In this document: positions 23,149 to 31,091 of the stretch, one piece after another | How positions within the stretch are numbered: position 1 is the stretch's first letter | How the letters are laid out: the number at the start of each line of letters is the position of its first letter | Assembly (NCBI GenBank): GCA_002842655.1 | Contig: PHDP01000004.1 | Span: 1 to 49,165, forward strand | Origin: Bacteroidetes bacterium HGW-Bacteroidetes-14 | GTDB lineage: Bacteria; Bacteroidota; Bacteroidia; Bacteroidales; UBA932 | Direction: 5' to 3' | Length of the DNA stretch: 49,165 nucleotides | The notes under the pieces: generated by a model | What the model was told of the DNA's origin: nothing | What the model saw: the letters and a program-made list of their open reading frames with translations, nothing else | The model's database searches: none | Position numbers and translations under genes: made by a program

Positions 23149-24402
23149 TTACCGCTTTCCCAATTTGAGAACAAGAGAGTCAATATATTGAACCGACTTT
23201 AACGAGTCCGACACATGCTTCATGCTCTTAATCTGAAGATTGTAAGCATCTCTGTTCTCTCTTTTTACAGGATCTGCCGGAGGTGCCTCCATCTTAAGAG
23301 GATTTATAGCCTTTCCATCTTTCCAGATTCTGAAGTCCAGATGCGGACCTGTTGAGAGGCCGGTACTTCCGACATAACCTATTACTTCTCCCTGTCTCAC
23401 TCTCTTGCCTGTTGAGAGACCCTTTGCGTAGGCCGAAAGGTGAAGGTATGCAGATGTGTAGGTCGAATTGTGGCGGATTTTTACTGTATTTCCGCCGCCT
23501 CCAGCATAGGCTTTTTGAATTACAACTCCGTCACCTATACTCATAACAGGAGTCCCTTTAGGTGCTGCATAGTCAATACCGGTATGAGGCCTCACGATTC
23601 TGGTCACCGGGTGTCTTCTTGAGTATGTAAAGCCCGACGATATGCGGGTAAAGCTGAGAGGTGCCTTCAGAAAAGCTTTTCTGAGGTTCTCTCCCTTCTC
23701 GTTCCAGTACTGCGGAACTTCGTCCTGAATAAACCGGTATGCCTCATACATTACTCCGCCGTGTCTGAAGTAGGCTGCCTGAACATCACCTATATCAAGA
23801 ACCTCTCCTCCCGCAAGAATCTCTTCATAAATGACCGTGAACGAATCACCCTTCTGCAGTCCAAAGAAGTCAATTGTCCAAGCATAAATTTCAGACAATC
23901 TCAGTGCCAGCATTGGGTTAAGCCCTGCTTTGGACATATCATTCCAAAGAGAGGTGTTGATTGTGGCTTCTGCAACTCTTGTCCTGACTGTTACCGCCAC
24001 TTCGTCTACTTTAACAAATATTGAGTCATGCACACCAAAAGTTACATATGATGTCTTTGAGTTTTCATATACAAGGTATGCAAGTTTGGGAACTTCATCA
24101 AGGGTAAAGTATGCTTTGTAAGGGTTACCCACTTTAAGTTTTTTCAGATCGAATGTACCTCTGGCTGCCTGCGTAAGCGCATAAATATCTGCGCTCTGTG
24201 CACCAAGCTCAGTCATTAGGGTTGTAAAGAACTGACCTCTCTTTACGGTACCCTCCCTCATTTGAAATTCAGAAACAGGAATTCCGAACTCTGTCAGCTC
24301 CTCTTTTATTGGTTCCGATTGTAAATTATTTTGATTGTCCGGATTATTGTTATTGCACGCAACCAGCAGAATAACAGCGAATAATGGGGCTATAAATTTC
24401 AT
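23149..24402 (-). CDS. M23 family peptidase, lipoprotein-like
   Basis: Lipobox LLVAC; HPVTRIVRPHTGIDYAAPKGTPVMSIGDGVV; YLHLSAYAKGL; GLSTGPHLDFRIW. Confidence 0.94.
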   Translation of the reverse strand: MKFIAPLFAVILLVACNNNNPDNQNNLQSEPIKEELTEFGIPVSEFQMREGTVKRGQFFTTLMTELGAQSADIYALTQAARGTFDLKKLKVGNPYKAYFTLDEVPKLAYLVYENSKTSYVTFGVHDSIFVKVDEVAVTVRTRVAEATINTSLWNDMSKAGLNPMLALRLSEIYAWTIDFFGLQKGDSFTVIYEEILAGGEVLDIGDVQAAYFRHGGVMYEAYRFIQDEVPQYWNEKGENLRKAFLKAPLSFTRISSGFTYSRRHPVTRIVRPHTGIDYAAPKGTPVMSIGDGVVIQKAYAGGGGNTVKIRHNSTYTSAYLHLSAYAKGLSTGKRVRQGEVIGYVGSTGLSTGPHLDFRIWKDGKAINPLKMEAPPADPVKRENRDAYNLQIKSMKHVSDSLKSVQYIDSLVLKLGKR

Positions 24403-24460
24403 AAGCAAAAGTTTCTTAATTCAAAGATATAGAATTTCGGGGAGGGTGTTGATAAAATTG

Positions 24461-24496
24461 TGGAAATAATTGTAAAAAAATGTAAACAAGTGGAAA
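24461..24496 (+). promoter_or_regulatory. Four direct repeats TG[G/T]AAA at exact 10-bp spacing; candidate MraZ operator
   Basis: tggaaa 24461, tgtaaa 24471, tgtaaa 24481, tggaaa 24491, immediately upstream of the -7 box at 24505. Confidence 0.65.
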
Positions 24497-24504
24497 AGAT
24501 TTTT

Positions 24505-24512
24505 TAATTTTG
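24505..24512 (+). promoter_or_regulatory. Putative -7 box TAATTTTG for mraZ/dcw
   Basis: TAnnTTTG, 35 bp upstream of ATG 24548. Confidence 0.55.
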
Positions 24513-24547: not shown

Positions 24548-24994
24548 ATGGTCAAATTCATAGGAGAATATACTGCAAAGGTGGACGACAAGGGAAGGCT
24601 AATACTCCCCTCTTCGTTCAAGGCAGCCATATTGCCTGGTGGCGACCTCAGGCTGGTAATCAAAAAAGATCTCTTCTCCAATTGTCTGGAGATGTACACT
24701 TACGAAGAGTGGGCTAAAGAGAGTGAGCAGGTTAAATCCCGCCTCAACTTCTTCAACAGGGACCACTCACGCTTCTGGCGTGAATATATGCGCGACCGGG
24801 CCACGGTGGAGCCCGATGAAAAGCTTGGGAGGATTTCTGTTCCCAAAAGACTGCTTGAACAAATTGGGGTTGAAAAAGAGGTGATTTTTGCGGGCAATGA
24901 CCACAAAATTGAGATCTGGGCGAAAGAGGCCTTTGACAACAACAAGCTCAACGACAGCGATTACCTGGCACTTGCAGAAAACATTTTAGGATAG
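24548..24994 (+). CDS. mraZ: Transcriptional regulator MraZ
   Basis: GEYTAKVDDKGRLILPSSFK and second repeat DEKLGRISVPKRLLEQIGV; first gene of dcw cluster. Confidence 0.95.
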   Translation: MVKFIGEYTAKVDDKGRLILPSSFKAAILPGGDLRLVIKKDLFSNCLEMYTYEEWAKESEQVKSRLNFFNRDHSRFWREYMRDRATVEPDEKLGRISVPKRLLEQIGVEKEVIFAGNDHKIEIWAKEAFDNNKLNDSDYLALAENILG

Positions 24995-25006: not shown

Positions 25007-25918
25007 ATGAGTGAGTATCATACACCGGTTCTGTTAAAAGAGAGTGTATCAGCACTGGCTATACATGACGGGGGCATCTATGCAGATGTCACTTTTGGCG
25101 GAGGTGGTCACAGCAGGGAAATCCTCTCGCAGATGGGAGAAAAATCAAGGCTGATTGTATTTGACCGCGATCCCGATGCTATCCGCAATGCACCTGACGA
25201 TAAAAGGCTGATTTTTATAAACAATAATTTTCGTTTCGTTCACAATCACCTTAAGAATGCAGGTTATGCAGAGGTGGACGGAATACTGGCAGACCTGGGA
25301 GTTTCATCTCACCAGTTTGACACAGAGGAGAGAGGATTTTCGTTCAGATTTGACGCAAGACTGGACATGAGAATGAATCCTCTGACCAAAATGGGAGCAG
25401 CAGAGATTCTGGAGAGTTACGATGAGCAGGCCCTTGCAAAGATGTTCTGGGAACTGGGTGAGGTAGACAACAGCCGCAAGGTGGCCAGACTTATCTGCAA
25501 AGAGAGGGATACAGAAAAAATTGAGACTACATATCAGCTTAACAGAATTCTTGAACCTCTTACGCCAAAACCTAACGGCCATAAATATCTGGCAAAGATA
25601 TACCAGGCTCTTAGGATAGAGGTTAACGGAGAGATGAGAGCACTTGAGGGTTTTCTGACAGGATCACTCAAAGCGCTCAAACCCGGAGGCAGACTGGTAG
25701 TGATAACTTACCACTCCCTCGAAGACCGCATGGTTAAGAACTTCATGCGTTCCGGAAATATTGAGGGAAAAGTTGAAAAAGACTTTTACGGAAGAGAGTC
25801 AACGCCCTTCAGGCTCGTCTTCAGAAAACCGGTGCTTCCTGCAGAAAGCGAGATAGCATCCAACACAAGGGCAAGAAGTGCAAAACTGAGAGTAGCAGAA
25901 AAGACAGAGGAGGATTAA
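25007..25918 (+). CDS. rsmH: 16S rRNA m4C1402 methyltransferase
   Basis: HTPVLLKESVSAL, DVTFGGGGHS, DLGVSSHQFD. Confidence 0.97.
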   Translation: MSEYHTPVLLKESVSALAIHDGGIYADVTFGGGGHSREILSQMGEKSRLIVFDRDPDAIRNAPDDKRLIFINNNFRFVHNHLKNAGYAEVDGILADLGVSSHQFDTEERGFSFRFDARLDMRMNPLTKMGAAEILESYDEQALAKMFWELGEVDNSRKVARLICKERDTEKIETTYQLNRILEPLTPKPNGHKYLAKIYQALRIEVNGEMRALEGFLTGSLKALKPGGRLVVITYHSLEDRMVKNFMRSGNIEGKVEKDFYGRESTPFRLVFRKPVLPAESEIASNTRARSAKLRVAEKTEED

Positions 25919-25921
25919 CAG

Positions 25922-26242
25922 ATGGCTAAGAAGAAATGGGTATCGGACATAATGGGCGGACAAATCCTTATAAGCAGCGGAATCATGCAGCAAATGGGAT
26001 TTGTTCTTTACATATTCCTGCTTGTGATTCTCTACATCTCACTGAATTTTACAATTGAGAACAGGCTGGTTGCAGAGAGACACAATCAGCGTGAAATAAA
26101 AAACCTGAAGGCACACTATACCGGAATAAAGGCAAGGTTACTATACCAGAGCAAGCGTATAGAGATTGAGAAAAAGTTACTTGAGTACAACTCACAACTA
26201 AAATCTCCAGCCAACCCGCCTTCAATTATTGAACTGGACTGA
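25922..26242 (+). CDS. ftsL: FtsL-like cell division protein
   Basis: 106 aa, one TM segment then coiled coil, between rsmH and ftsI. Confidence 0.8.
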   Translation: MAKKKWVSDIMGGQILISSGIMQQMGFVLYIFLLVILYISLNFTIENRLVAERHNQREIKNLKAHYTGIKARLLYQSKRIEIEKKLLEYNSQLKSPANPPSIIELD

Positions 26243-26244
26243 TT

Positions 26245-28362
26245 ATGAAAGACATTATTTCCAAAGTAGGAATAATCTACTTCTTCATGGTACTTTCCGC
26301 CATTCTTGTGATTGGCAGGATTGTGCATCTTCAGTTCTTTGCCAAACTTCCTGTCAGTTCAGAAGAGATATCTTTCCGTATAGAAGAGATTGAGGCGGTA
26401 AGAGGCAGCATTCTTGCCAGTGACGGCCGCTCTCTGGCAAGTTCGGTTCCATACTATCAGGTAAGAATGGACTGCAAATTCCCGGAAGACACTGTATTCA
26501 ATAATAATATTGATTCTCTTTCATATTATCTCTCAAACTTTTTCGGAGACAAAAGCCCTTCGGGCTACAAGAGCGAGCTGGTTGCTGCCCGTAAAAAGGG
26601 AAACAGATACAAGGCTGTAGGTAACAGACTTGTCGACTATGCAGAGCTAACCGAGATAAGAAACTTCCCAATGTTCAGGCTTAAGGGAAATAAAGGCGGA
26701 TTCATAAGCGAGCAGAAGAGTAAAAGGAATAATCCATATGGCCGCCTGGCCTACCGTACTATCGGCTTTACAAATACGAACGGAGTCAGCGTTGGTATTG
26801 AGGGCAGCTTTGACTACTACCTCAAGGGTATCCCCGGCAAACAGACTGTACAGAGACTCCTTGGAGGTGAGTGGATGCCGGTAAATGTTGAGGAGGCTGT
26901 GTTGCCGCAGGATGGTTTTGACGTAAGAACCACTCTGGATATTGACATTCAGGAGGCAGCAGAAAATGCGTTAAGGAATCAGCTTTCACTCTCAGATGTG
27001 TTTGAGGGTGCGACAGCAATTGTTATGGAGGTTGAAACCGGAGCAATACGGGCAATCACCAATATGAAGAAGATGGCAAACGGCGAATTCGACGAATCAT
27101 TCAACTATGCAATAGGTCAGGCCACTGAGCCGGGATCGACATTTAAACTGGCAACTCTGGTAGCCCTCATTGAGGATGGTTTTGTAACGCTTGACACTCC
27201 GGTTGATGCCGGTAACGGAAAATGGCAGTACAGCACAAAGGTCTTTACCGATGTTACAAAGGGAGGATATGGTCTTATTGATGTAAGAAAGGCATTTGAA
27301 AAGTCTTCCAATGTGGCTTTTGCCAAACTTGCCGTTGAGTATTATTCAAACAATGAAAAGAAATATGTGGACAGACTCCACAATATGAAAATTGGTGAAA
27401 AGTTTGGGCTTGATATTATGGGCGAGGGAAGATCAATTATCCACTCCCCCGGCGATGTAAGCTGGTCTAAACTTACTTTGCCAATGATGGCTATGGGTTA
27501 CGCTTCACTGCTCACCCCTCTTCACACACTTGCCTTCTACAACGCAATTGCAAACAGGGGTAAAATGATGAAACCATTCTTTGTAGAGAGACTTGAGAAG
27601 CATGGTGTTGCGGAAAAGGAGTTCAAGCCTCAGGAGATGAGCGGTTCAATCTGCTCTGAATCTACAATCAAGGCTGTTCACGAAGCATTGCGCGGTGTTG
27701 TTGAGCACGGAACGGCAAAATCAATCAACGATCCAAGATATAAGATATCAGGAAAGACAGGTACTGCGCAGATTGCGTTTGACGGCAGATACATAGATTC
27801 ACAGGGATACAGAAAACATCAGGCCTCATTTGCCGGCTTCTTCCCGAGTGACAATCCAAAATATACGGCAGTTGTGGTTCTCTACACAAACAAAACAAGG
27901 GCAAACTTCTACGGAGGCTCATGGGCAGCTCCGGTTTTCAAACAGATAGCAGACAGAATTTACGCAAACAATCCTCAGTGGAGCGCACCTGTTCAGGGAA
28001 AGGGTAAAGTAACCCTGACAACCCCGCATATTATGTCGGGAAGGGCAAAGGAGACATCAAAGCTGATGGCCTCTCTTCCATCTGCAGACAAATACGGCAA
28101 AGCTTCAGGCGAATGGATAAGTTTCAGCAAAGACTCACTTGAAAGAGTTGTGGCAGAGGAATACCATATTGACAGAGACAGCGTGCCTGGTGTTCTTAAC
28201 ATGGGACTGAGGGATGCTCTGTACATACTGGAAAACCAGGGTTACAAGGTAAAATTTACCGGCAAGGGCAGAGTGGTAGCCCAGACACCGGCGCCGGGAG
28301 CATGGGCAGAGAAGAACTCCATTATTAACATTCAACTTTCAGACAATTATGAGACTAAATAA
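26245..28362 (+). CDS. ftsI: Penicillin-binding protein / FtsI transpeptidase with PASTA domain
   Basis: EPGSTFKLATL (SxxK), SSN, KTGTAQ; C-terminal PASTA-like domain. Confidence 0.95.
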   Translation: MKDIISKVGIIYFFMVLSAILVIGRIVHLQFFAKLPVSSEEISFRIEEIEAVRGSILASDGRSLASSVPYYQVRMDCKFPEDTVFNNNIDSLSYYLSNFFGDKSPSGYKSELVAARKKGNRYKAVGNRLVDYAELTEIRNFPMFRLKGNKGGFISEQKSKRNNPYGRLAYRTIGFTNTNGVSVGIEGSFDYYLKGIPGKQTVQRLLGGEWMPVNVEEAVLPQDGFDVRTTLDIDIQEAAENALRNQLSLSDVFEGATAIVMEVETGAIRAITNMKKMANGEFDESFNYAIGQATEPGSTFKLATLVALIEDGFVTLDTPVDAGNGKWQYSTKVFTDVTKGGYGLIDVRKAFEKSSNVAFAKLAVEYYSNNEKKYVDRLHNMKIGEKFGLDIMGEGRSIIHSPGDVSWSKLTLPMMAMGYASLLTPLHTLAFYNAIANRGKMMKPFFVERLEKHGVAEKEFKPQEMSGSICSESTIKAVHEALRGVVEHGTAKSINDPRYKISGKTGTAQIAFDGRYIDSQGYRKHQASFAGFFPSDNPKYTAVVVLYTNKTRANFYGGSWAAPVFKQIADRIYANNPQWSAPVQGKGKVTLTTPHIMSGRAKETSKLMASLPSADKYGKASGEWISFSKDSLERVVAEEYHIDRDSVPGVLNMGLRDALYILENQGYKVKFTGKGRVVAQTPAPGAWAEKNSIINIQLSDNYETK

Positions 28363-29806
28363 TTTGCTGCAAGGCATTCCTACAGGTTCAACCGGCAAAT
28401 CGCTGCAAATGGATGCAGAGATTGGCGGAGTTTGCTTTGACTCAAGGAGTATCAAGCCAGGAGATCTCTTTATAGCAGTAAGAGGCAGTGCTTCTGACGG
28501 ACATCAGTATATAGGTATGGCTCTTGAAAAGGGAGCTTCAGCTGTGCTTTGCGAAGAGATCCCGGCAGAGTTCGCACAATCTGCCCTCATTACAACTCCG
28601 GACAGCCACCTTGCTCTTGGAATGGCAGCATCAAACTTTTACGGCAGGCCCTCTGAGGCAATGAAAGTTGTGGGAATAACCGGCACAAACGGAAAAACCA
28701 CTACTGTAACACTTATGCACAGACTCTTTACCGGACTTGGTTACAAATGCGGCCTGCTCTCAACAATTGTAAACTACATTGGAGACAAAGAGGTAGAGGC
28801 AACACATACAACTCCGGACCCGGTGCAGATGAACTCACTTATGGCAAGAATGGCAGCAGAGGGTTGCGAATATTGCTTTATGGAGGTTAGCTCCCACTCA
28901 CTTGATCAGAAAAGAACAGCCGGAATTCATTTTACCGGAGGAATCTTTTCAAATATCACACATGATCACCTTGATTACCACAAGACATTTGCAGAGTATA
29001 TAAGAGTCAAGAAGAGCTTCTTTGACAATCTGGAACCAGATGCTTTTGCCCTCACCAATATTGATGACAGAAACGGCTTGGTTATGCTCCAGAATACCCC
29101 TGCAAAAAAATACAGATACTCATGCATTTCACCTGCAGACTTTAACTGCAGGATTATTGAAAAGGGGCTGGACGGCATGCTTGTCAAAATTGACAATCAG
29201 GAGGTATGGACCAAATTCATAGGCGTTCACAATGCATATAACCTGCTGGCAGTATACTCTGCCGCTGTGCTTCTTGGAGCAGGAAGAGAGGAGACTCTGG
29301 TTCAGATTAGTGCTTTAACAAGTGTCGCCGGAAGACTGGAGTATATTAAGGGATTCAGGGAGCTAACCGCAGTTGTTGATTATGCACACACACCGGATGC
29401 CCTTGAGAATGTTCTCAAAACCCTTAAGGATTGTGCAGACGGCAAGGAGATAGTAACAGTTTTCGGATGCGGGGGAAACAGAGACAAGACTAAGCGTCCG
29501 GAGATGGCAAAGGTTGCTGCGAAGTATTCAGATAAAGTGGTTGTCACATCAGATAACCCAAGGTTTGAAGAACCTGAGGCAATAATTGAAGATATTAAGG
29601 CGGGGTTTGAAACCAAGGGGAGGGCAAGGGCACTCTTCATTACAGACAGAAAAGAGGCAATAAGGACAGCGCTCATTATGGCTAATCCGGGATCGATTGT
29701 ACTTGTGGCAGGAAAGGGCCACGAGAACTATCAGGATGTAAAGGGAGTGAAACATCACTTCGATGACAAGGAGGTTATAGGAGAAGTATTTGATCAAAAC
29801 AATTAA
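28349..29806 (+). CDS. murE: UDP-MurNAc-L-Ala-D-Glu ligase, MurE
   Basis: [42 protein letters not shown]. Confidence 0.96.
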
Positions 29807-29810
29807 GGCT

Positions 29811-31091
29811 ATGTTGTACAATTTATTTGAATATCTAAAGGATTATGTAGACTTTCCGGGACTGGGCCTCTTCAGGTACATTTCGTTCCGCGCCTTTTCT
29901 GCCATAATACTGTCGATGCTCATAGCTTTGTTTCTGGGCAAGAGAATAATCAACAAACTGGCAAAAAAACAGATTGGAGAGAGTATCAGAGACCTGGGAC
30001 TGGAGGGACAGATGCAGAAAAAGGGAACTCCTACAATGGGAGGTATTATTATCCTTGTCTCTCTTCTTATTCCGGCAATCTTGCTTGGTGACCTCACCAA
30101 CATATACGTCCAGCTCATGATTATCACAACAGTGTGGCTGGGTTTCATAGGATTTCTTGATGATTATATTAAAGTCTTCAAAAAGAATAAAGAGGGACTT
30201 CAGGGAAAATTCAAGATTTTTGGACAGGTGGGATTAGGGCTCATAGTTGGAGTAAGTCTTTACCTGAGCGACCAGGCTGTGGTAAGAGTTCCATCTACCT
30301 CAGATGCTGTTGAATCTCATGCAGAGGTTATAAGCCAGGAGGGATTCTCAGACAAAGTCGGATATTTTAAGGATGTAAAGAGTACAATCACCACTATACC
30401 TTTTGTAAAGGATAACGAATTTGACTATGCATGGCTCTCTCCTTTCGAAGGAGAACTGGGAGAAAAAGTTACCTGGATCATTTATATAGTAATGGTAATA
30501 TTCATTGTAACTGCTGTATCCAACGGAACAAACCTTACAGATGGCATGGATGGTCTTGCGACCGGAGTTTCAGCTGTTGTGGGGGTTACTCTGGCTGTGC
30601 TTGCATATCTGTCGGGTAACGTAATATACGCCAATTACCTCAATATCATGTATATTCCCAACACGGGAGAACTTGTGATTGTTATGGCAGCCTTTATTGG
30701 AGCACTGGTGGGATTCCTCTGGTACAACTCCTACCCTGCTCAGGTATTCATGGGAGATACCGGGTCACTTGCCATTGGAGGAATAATAGCAGTAGCAGCA
30801 ATTATGATTCATAAAGAGCTGCTCATTCCAATTCTTTGCGGAATCTTCTTTGTGGAGAGCCTCTCTGTAATTATCCAGAGACTCTATTTTAAATATACCA
30901 GAAAGAAATATGGCGAAGGTGTGAGAGTATTCAAAATGTCTCCGCTTCACCACCATTTTCAGAAAGAGGGAATTCCTGCCCTCATTCAGTTCCCAAAGAG
31001 AGCACTGCCCGAAGCCAAGATTGTTGCCCGGTTCTGGATTATAGCAATCATTCTGGCAGTAGTAACAGTTGTAACATTAAAAATAAGATAA
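29811..31091 (+). CDS. mraY: Phospho-MurNAc-pentapeptide transferase
   Basis: [42 protein letters not shown] 29811 preferred over TTG 29790. Confidence 0.97.

Follow-up and report, generated by a model that had tools for sequence, protein, structure and literature searches.

Conserved repeats before mraZ and an adjoining DnaA-type box suggest a composite dcw promoter in Bacteroidales

The 49,165-nucleotide stretch of DNA analysed here (the window), from Bacteroidetes bacterium HGW-Bacteroidetes-14, carries four short direct repeats between a divergent M23 peptidase gene and mraZ, which raises the question whether these repeats form an operator of MraZ and whether a second regulator reads the same promoter. 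Four TGKAAA repeats in 10-bp register before a -7 box had been listed in a preliminary description of this DNA, and direct reading of the sequence confirmed their coordinates exactly, with 10 bp between successive repeat starts (R1 to R4, Table 1). In E. coli, the MraZ box described by Eraso et al. 2014 (cited in PMC8475190) reportedly has TGGGN units repeated in direct orientation, with spacers of 5 nt, in front of mraZ. Like that box, the window array consists of direct repeats that share a TG core and a 10-bp phase and precede mraZ and the dcw cluster; it differs in reading TGKAAA instead of TGGGN, in comprising four repeats and in its fixed position relative to a -7 box of the Bacteroidetes type TAnnTTTG. 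For the Mollicutes, PMC5282649 gives the MraZ site of Fisunov et al. 2016 as (AAAGTGKN3)3. It has the 10-bp period and the GTGK core in common with the window array, but the flanking A/T pattern differs, TT precedes R1 and the second DNA-binding loop of the window MraZ is one residue longer. The half-site had been called diverged, which is fair relative to the E. coli TGGGN and less so relative to the Mollicutes site, of which GTGK core and period are kept.

Table 1. Coordinates of the features at the mraZ locus of the window
Feature	Position	Strand	Remark
M23 peptidase gene, divergent	23149-24402	-	
-7-like box TATCTTTG of the divergent M23 gene	24422-24429	-	consensus match only
DnaA-type box TTATCAACA (TGTTGATAA on +)	24447-24455	-	conserved at -14 from R1
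Possible weaker DnaA-like word overlapping R1 (TGTGGAAAT on +)	24459-24467	-	12 bp from first box
MraZ repeat 1 (R1), TGGAAA	24461-24466	+	sequence read directly; alignment of mraZ-upstream regions
MraZ repeat 2 (R2), TGTAAA	24471-24476	+	sequence read directly; alignment of mraZ-upstream regions
MraZ repeat 3 (R3), TGTAAA	24481-24486	+	in promoter -33 region
MraZ repeat 4 (R4), TGGAAA	24491-24496	+	sequence read directly; alignment of mraZ-upstream regions
-7 box TAATTTTG (TAnnTTTG)	24505-24512	+	14 bp from R4 start
mraZ	24548-24994	+	148 aa, two MraZ half-domains; ATG at 24548
Second MraZ DNA-binding loop, D90-E-K-L-G-R95	24815-24832	+	clade-specific extra residue
mraW/rsmH	25007-25918	+	next dcw cluster gene
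FtsL-like	25922-26242		dcw cluster, after mraW/rsmH
PBP with PASTA	26245-28362		dcw cluster
Mur ligase (murE-type)	28349-29806		dcw cluster
mraY-type	29790-31091		dcw cluster; read from sequence only

Genome-wide pattern searches revealed a single occurrence of the three-repeat form TGKAAN5TGKAAN5TGKAA in the 2.14-Mb genome, located at mraZ, and exactly one four-repeat form per genome in 22 of 25 same-genus genomes, the own genome included, with zero control hits in both cases. In 100 dinucleotide shuffles of the window, the four-repeat pattern TGKAAA-N4 was never matched, although up to three mismatches were tolerated. As the search of the same-genus genomes detected the exact four-repeat form in none of 16 genomes belonging to other families of this order, the exact TGKAAA half-site is lineage-specific.

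For conservation analysis, 80 Bacteroidales mraZ loci were fetched, of which 79 had enough upstream sequence, giving 80 regions together with the window; these loci are phylogenetically related and the resulting counts are not independent. The alignment of mraZ-upstream regions from related Bacteroidetes, which had been proposed as a check of the preliminary description, showed the 10-bp-phased repeats to be conserved: 70 of the 80 regions carry a perfect TGKAA array (20/20), nine are one base off and one is three bases off. Array scores of at least 19/20 were obtained for 79 regions, compared to a maximum of 17/20 among 1600 shuffled regions. The TG core is invariant in R2, R3 and R4 (80/80) and nearly so in R1 (T 78/80, G 80/80) while the spacers between the repeats drift, and distances from one TGKAA to another are 10, 20 or 30 bp with almost no exceptions.

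The array is also fixed relative to the promoter, as R4 lies 14 bp from the TAnnTTTG -7 box in 68 loci and 15 bp in the remaining 12. With the promoter spacing usual in Bacteroidetes, R3 lies over the -33 region and R4 within the spacer, a geometry that fits repression of the occlusion type. An MraZ oligomer could occupy the repeats with one DNA-binding unit apiece, the units all facing the same side of the helix; it would then cover the -33 region as far as the border of the -7 box and repress mraZ together with the downstream division and wall genes. A role of MraZ as activator, bound immediately before a promoter that lacks a clear -33 box, appears unlikely to us, even though no clear TTG -33 element was seen by eye at the usual spacing and a mycoplasma MraZ has reportedly been described as an activator. 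The overlap of R3 and R4 with the -33 region rather fits occlusion, and the MraZ proteins of E. coli and M. genitalium repress their own clusters (PMC8475190).

Conservation of alignment columns in the 80 regions goes on upstream of R1, where positions -14 to -6 read TGTTGATAA, the reverse complement of a DnaA-type box at 24447-24455 which the preliminary description had missed. A fifth in-register repeat at 24451 (GATAAA, a partial match) was considered and dropped: the conserved block is TGTTGATAA at -14, which was reassigned to the DnaA box since it lies 12 bp, not 10, from the similar positions of R1. Exact TGTTGATAA was found in 32 of the 80 loci, whereas permuted 9-mers were found in 0.15 loci on average and in 4 at most. 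Exact TTATNMACA is present in 37 of the 80 loci, in 35 of them at -14 and in the same orientation, and 41 of the 79 Bacteroidales relatives show at most one mismatch to TGTTGATAA at -14. Compared to the consensus TTWTNCACA, the window box TTATCAACA has A at position 6. R1 itself reads TGTGGAAAA in 50 of 80 loci, as opposed to 1-3 of 80 for the other repeats, and this reading is associated with the -14 box; in the window R1 reads TGTGGAAAT, the last base of which departs from TGTGGAAAA. The resemblance of R1 to a DnaA-like word points to a site where DnaA and MraZ could compete.

DnaA-type boxes beside the MraZ box recur in many families of the class Bacteroidia, with differing arrangement. In family f6, the MraZ box is directly adjoined by TTATCAACA or TTATTAACA in the opposite orientation; in family f4, TTATCCACA or TTTTCCACA is located farther upstream. 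A perfect TTATCCACA is found in family f4, in genome G053 and at locus L055, and the corresponding word of family f3 is TGTKGAAAA. The mraZ-side word is mostly missing from families f7, f10 and f11, and outside the class it is near background (2 of 20 loci).

The same 9-mer occurs at further sites of the genus. The A/T-rich intergenic region between mfd and ruvB contains several TTATNMACA words in nearly all 23 same-genus loci (L321-L343). In the own genome these are TGTTGATAA, TTATCCACA, TGTTGATAA, TGTTAATAA and TTATCAACA upstream of ruvB (L322, contig C113), and at one position TTATCCACA and TTATCAACA interchange between same-genus genomes. By its sequence, this region looks like a candidate oriC of the genus; GC skew of the same-genus genome G307 gave no clean signal and did not confirm an origin at mfd-ruvB. 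TTATCAACA is also dense at 260-312 kb of the G307 sequence; where examined, these copies lie in coding sequence, and the patch was dropped as a candidate. Furthermore, the nrdA promoter carries TGTTGATAA 110-130 bp upstream of the gene in 21 of 22 genus genomes (L266-L287; own genome L268), frequently accompanied, at a distance of 12 bp, by another copy or near-copy. No boxes were found when the promoters of dnaA and dnaB in the own genus were checked. In family f6, TTATNAACA pairs about 20 bp apart precede dnaB and hup, four copies precede nrdB (L178-L189, L193, L256), and 12-bp-spaced pairs of DnaA-type words are over-represented; these dnaB, hup and nrdB words likely mark a DnaA regulon in f6 bacteria. 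DnaA-type words were found at dnaB in family f3 as well.

Two observations were made alongside these searches. The nrdA leader 3' of its -7 box is conserved and hairpin-like (GTCGANGGA...TCCNTCGGCTTTTTCTTTCGA), with no match in Rfam, and at loci L250 and L251 several TTATNMACA boxes lie immediately upstream of tyrosine-recombinase (XerD-like) genes.

Position 6 of the mraZ-side box was compared with the DnaA protein of the respective genomes (dnaA loci L158-L174 and L349-L378). Thr435 of E. coli DnaA makes a base contact with the DNA box, and alignment to 1j1v revealed Thr, Ser or Ala at the equivalent position of domain IV, depending on the family. Genomes with Thr have C at position 6 of the box in 8 of 8 cases and those with Ala have A in 12 of 13 (p=4e-5, relatedness not corrected). 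The only f6 genome with Ser at this position (G053) has the box TTATCCACA, in families f3 and f5, which likewise have Ser, position 6 is mixed, and family f9 breaks the covariation by combining Ala with a C6 box. The DnaA of the own genome had to be deduced from same-genus genomes because dnaA was not found in this 82.5% complete MAG.

These results bear on the possibility that the promoter is an MraZ operator only, in which TGTTGATAA would contribute to MraZ recognition or act as a general A/T-rich element of the promoter instead of a DnaA site. Within Bacteroidales the fixed distance and orientation of TGTTGATAA to R1 and its lack in many loci with all four repeats agree with such a reading, which we nevertheless regard as improbable: TGTTGATAA is separated from the matching R1 positions by 12 bp instead of 10, its orientation is opposite in family f6, the same word recurs in the region resembling oriC and at nrdA, with no MraZ array noted there, and its position 6 covaries with a DnaA residue. 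From the sequence comparisons it is quite likely that the dcw promoter is composite, with the TGKAAA array as an MraZ operator for repression and the adjoining box read by DnaA. At this composite promoter, DnaA would bind at the upstream edge of the array, with R1 serving as second DnaA-like word 12 bp away in most relatives, and could compete or cooperate with MraZ at R1, so that dcw transcription would follow replication status. Binding of MraZ and DnaA, repression rather than activation and the interplay of the two proteins are what we infer for this promoter.

Upstream of mraZ in 60 other Bacteroidota regions, the same architecture was found with a different half-site. Family f6 repeats GTGGTAAAAA, families f4, f5 and f10 have repeats of the TGGGAAAAAG type, and outside the class the repeats are of the TGGGGAA type. 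The same-order family f2 (L085) combines both half-site forms (TGGAAAGTAG TGGGGAATTG TGGGGAAATG). The TGG[G/T]A boxes of these bacteria have position and 10-bp phase in common with the window array, and in Bacteroidia with a clear -7 box also a similar distance to it, but usually comprise two to three repeats and belong to MraZ proteins without the loop insertion. As a peculiarity, the middle repeat of the f4 arrays (L108-L116), TGTTATTTTG, is an odd one; it stands between TGGGAAAAAG and TGTG and is conserved across genera. Phased TGK pairs are present in 54 of the 60 mraZ-bearing regions and in 1 of 13 rsmH-upstream regions of genomes without detectable mraZ, a comparison partly confounded by lineage because 9 of the 13 genomes come from one family.

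Concerning mraZ loss itself, all sampled genomes of family f25 lack detectable mraZ and keep rsmH (G027, G059, G086, G101, G105, G113, G136, G144, G232). Losses are scattered elsewhere (G190, G250, G005 and G280, among others), and G099 and G078 gave neither an mraZ nor an rsmH hit.

The predicted fold of the window MraZ (mean pLDDT 88) matches M. genitalium MraZ-DNA complexes, including 9sz7, in which the bound DNA is described as a '4 box promoter'. Loop 2 carries one extra residue in all 80 focal-clade proteins and in none of 60 other Bacteroidota proteins (D90-EKL-GR95 in the window, DxxGR in the others). The clade with the altered operator is the clade with the altered MraZ loop; this counts as one correlated change and not as many, as each may be a single event, and both changes may have occurred as one event on one branch. 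Conservation, the TGG[G/T]A counterparts, the absence from mraZ-less genomes and the clade-only loop insertion support the TGKAAA array as a putative lineage variant of the MraZ box. Together with position, phase, TG core and uniqueness they also bear out the proposal of the preliminary description that the repeats represent a Bacteroidetes MraZ box. That the repeats serve another regulator and precede mraZ only incidentally is very unlikely, considering that the architecture is common to the phylum, the array is gone where mraZ was lost and the loop changed in exactly the MraZ of the focal clade. Chance or the A-tract composition of an A/T-rich promoter, although such promoters are common and 10-bp-phased A-tracts are expected to bend DNA, is practically negligible as an explanation in view of the absence from shuffles, the one copy per genome and the invariant TG between drifting spacers.

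For the class Bacteroidia as a whole, sequence comparison gives roughly an even chance to a wider reading, namely that the dcw promoter is an old two-input switch with adjoining, partly overlapping DnaA and MraZ sites by which replication initiation would directly set division and wall transcription, and that in Bacteroidales both operators changed with their regulators, TGKAA with the MraZ loop insertion and TTATCAACA with the DnaA Thr-to-Ala substitution. Precedents in kind exist for a DnaA box at dcw, since DnaA boxes have been described at the B. subtilis ftsL promoter and at Caulobacter ftsZ, and in E. coli DnaA is known to target nrd (PMC8203912). These cases and the window have in common that a DnaA-type site lies in the promoter of a single gene or a cluster for division, with nrd as a further target; the window box differs by adjoining an MraZ operator, by recurring in many Bacteroidia families and by often having A instead of C at position 6. 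A search of the open-licence literature found no report of a DnaA box adjoining an MraZ operator across Bacteroidia, which is weak as evidence of absence, nor of correlated changes in both MraZ and DnaA. The recurring DnaA box beside the MraZ operator makes a link between replication and dcw testable in tractable Bacteroidia, e.g. Flavobacterium, and MraZ offers a natural case of an autoregulator whose loop and operator changed together, which is of use for understanding how MraZ reads DNA.

On the opposite side of the intergenic region, the array is plausibly close enough to affect the divergent M23 gene. The idea of a DnaA box that serves the M23 gene only found no support, as 14 of 35 loci where no M23 gene was detected still have the box, and so do four loci where the upstream gene runs in the direction of mraZ. 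Finally, ten TTATNMACA 9-mers, that at 24447 among them, were counted in the window (9346-42274), compared to 4.2 expected from shuffles.
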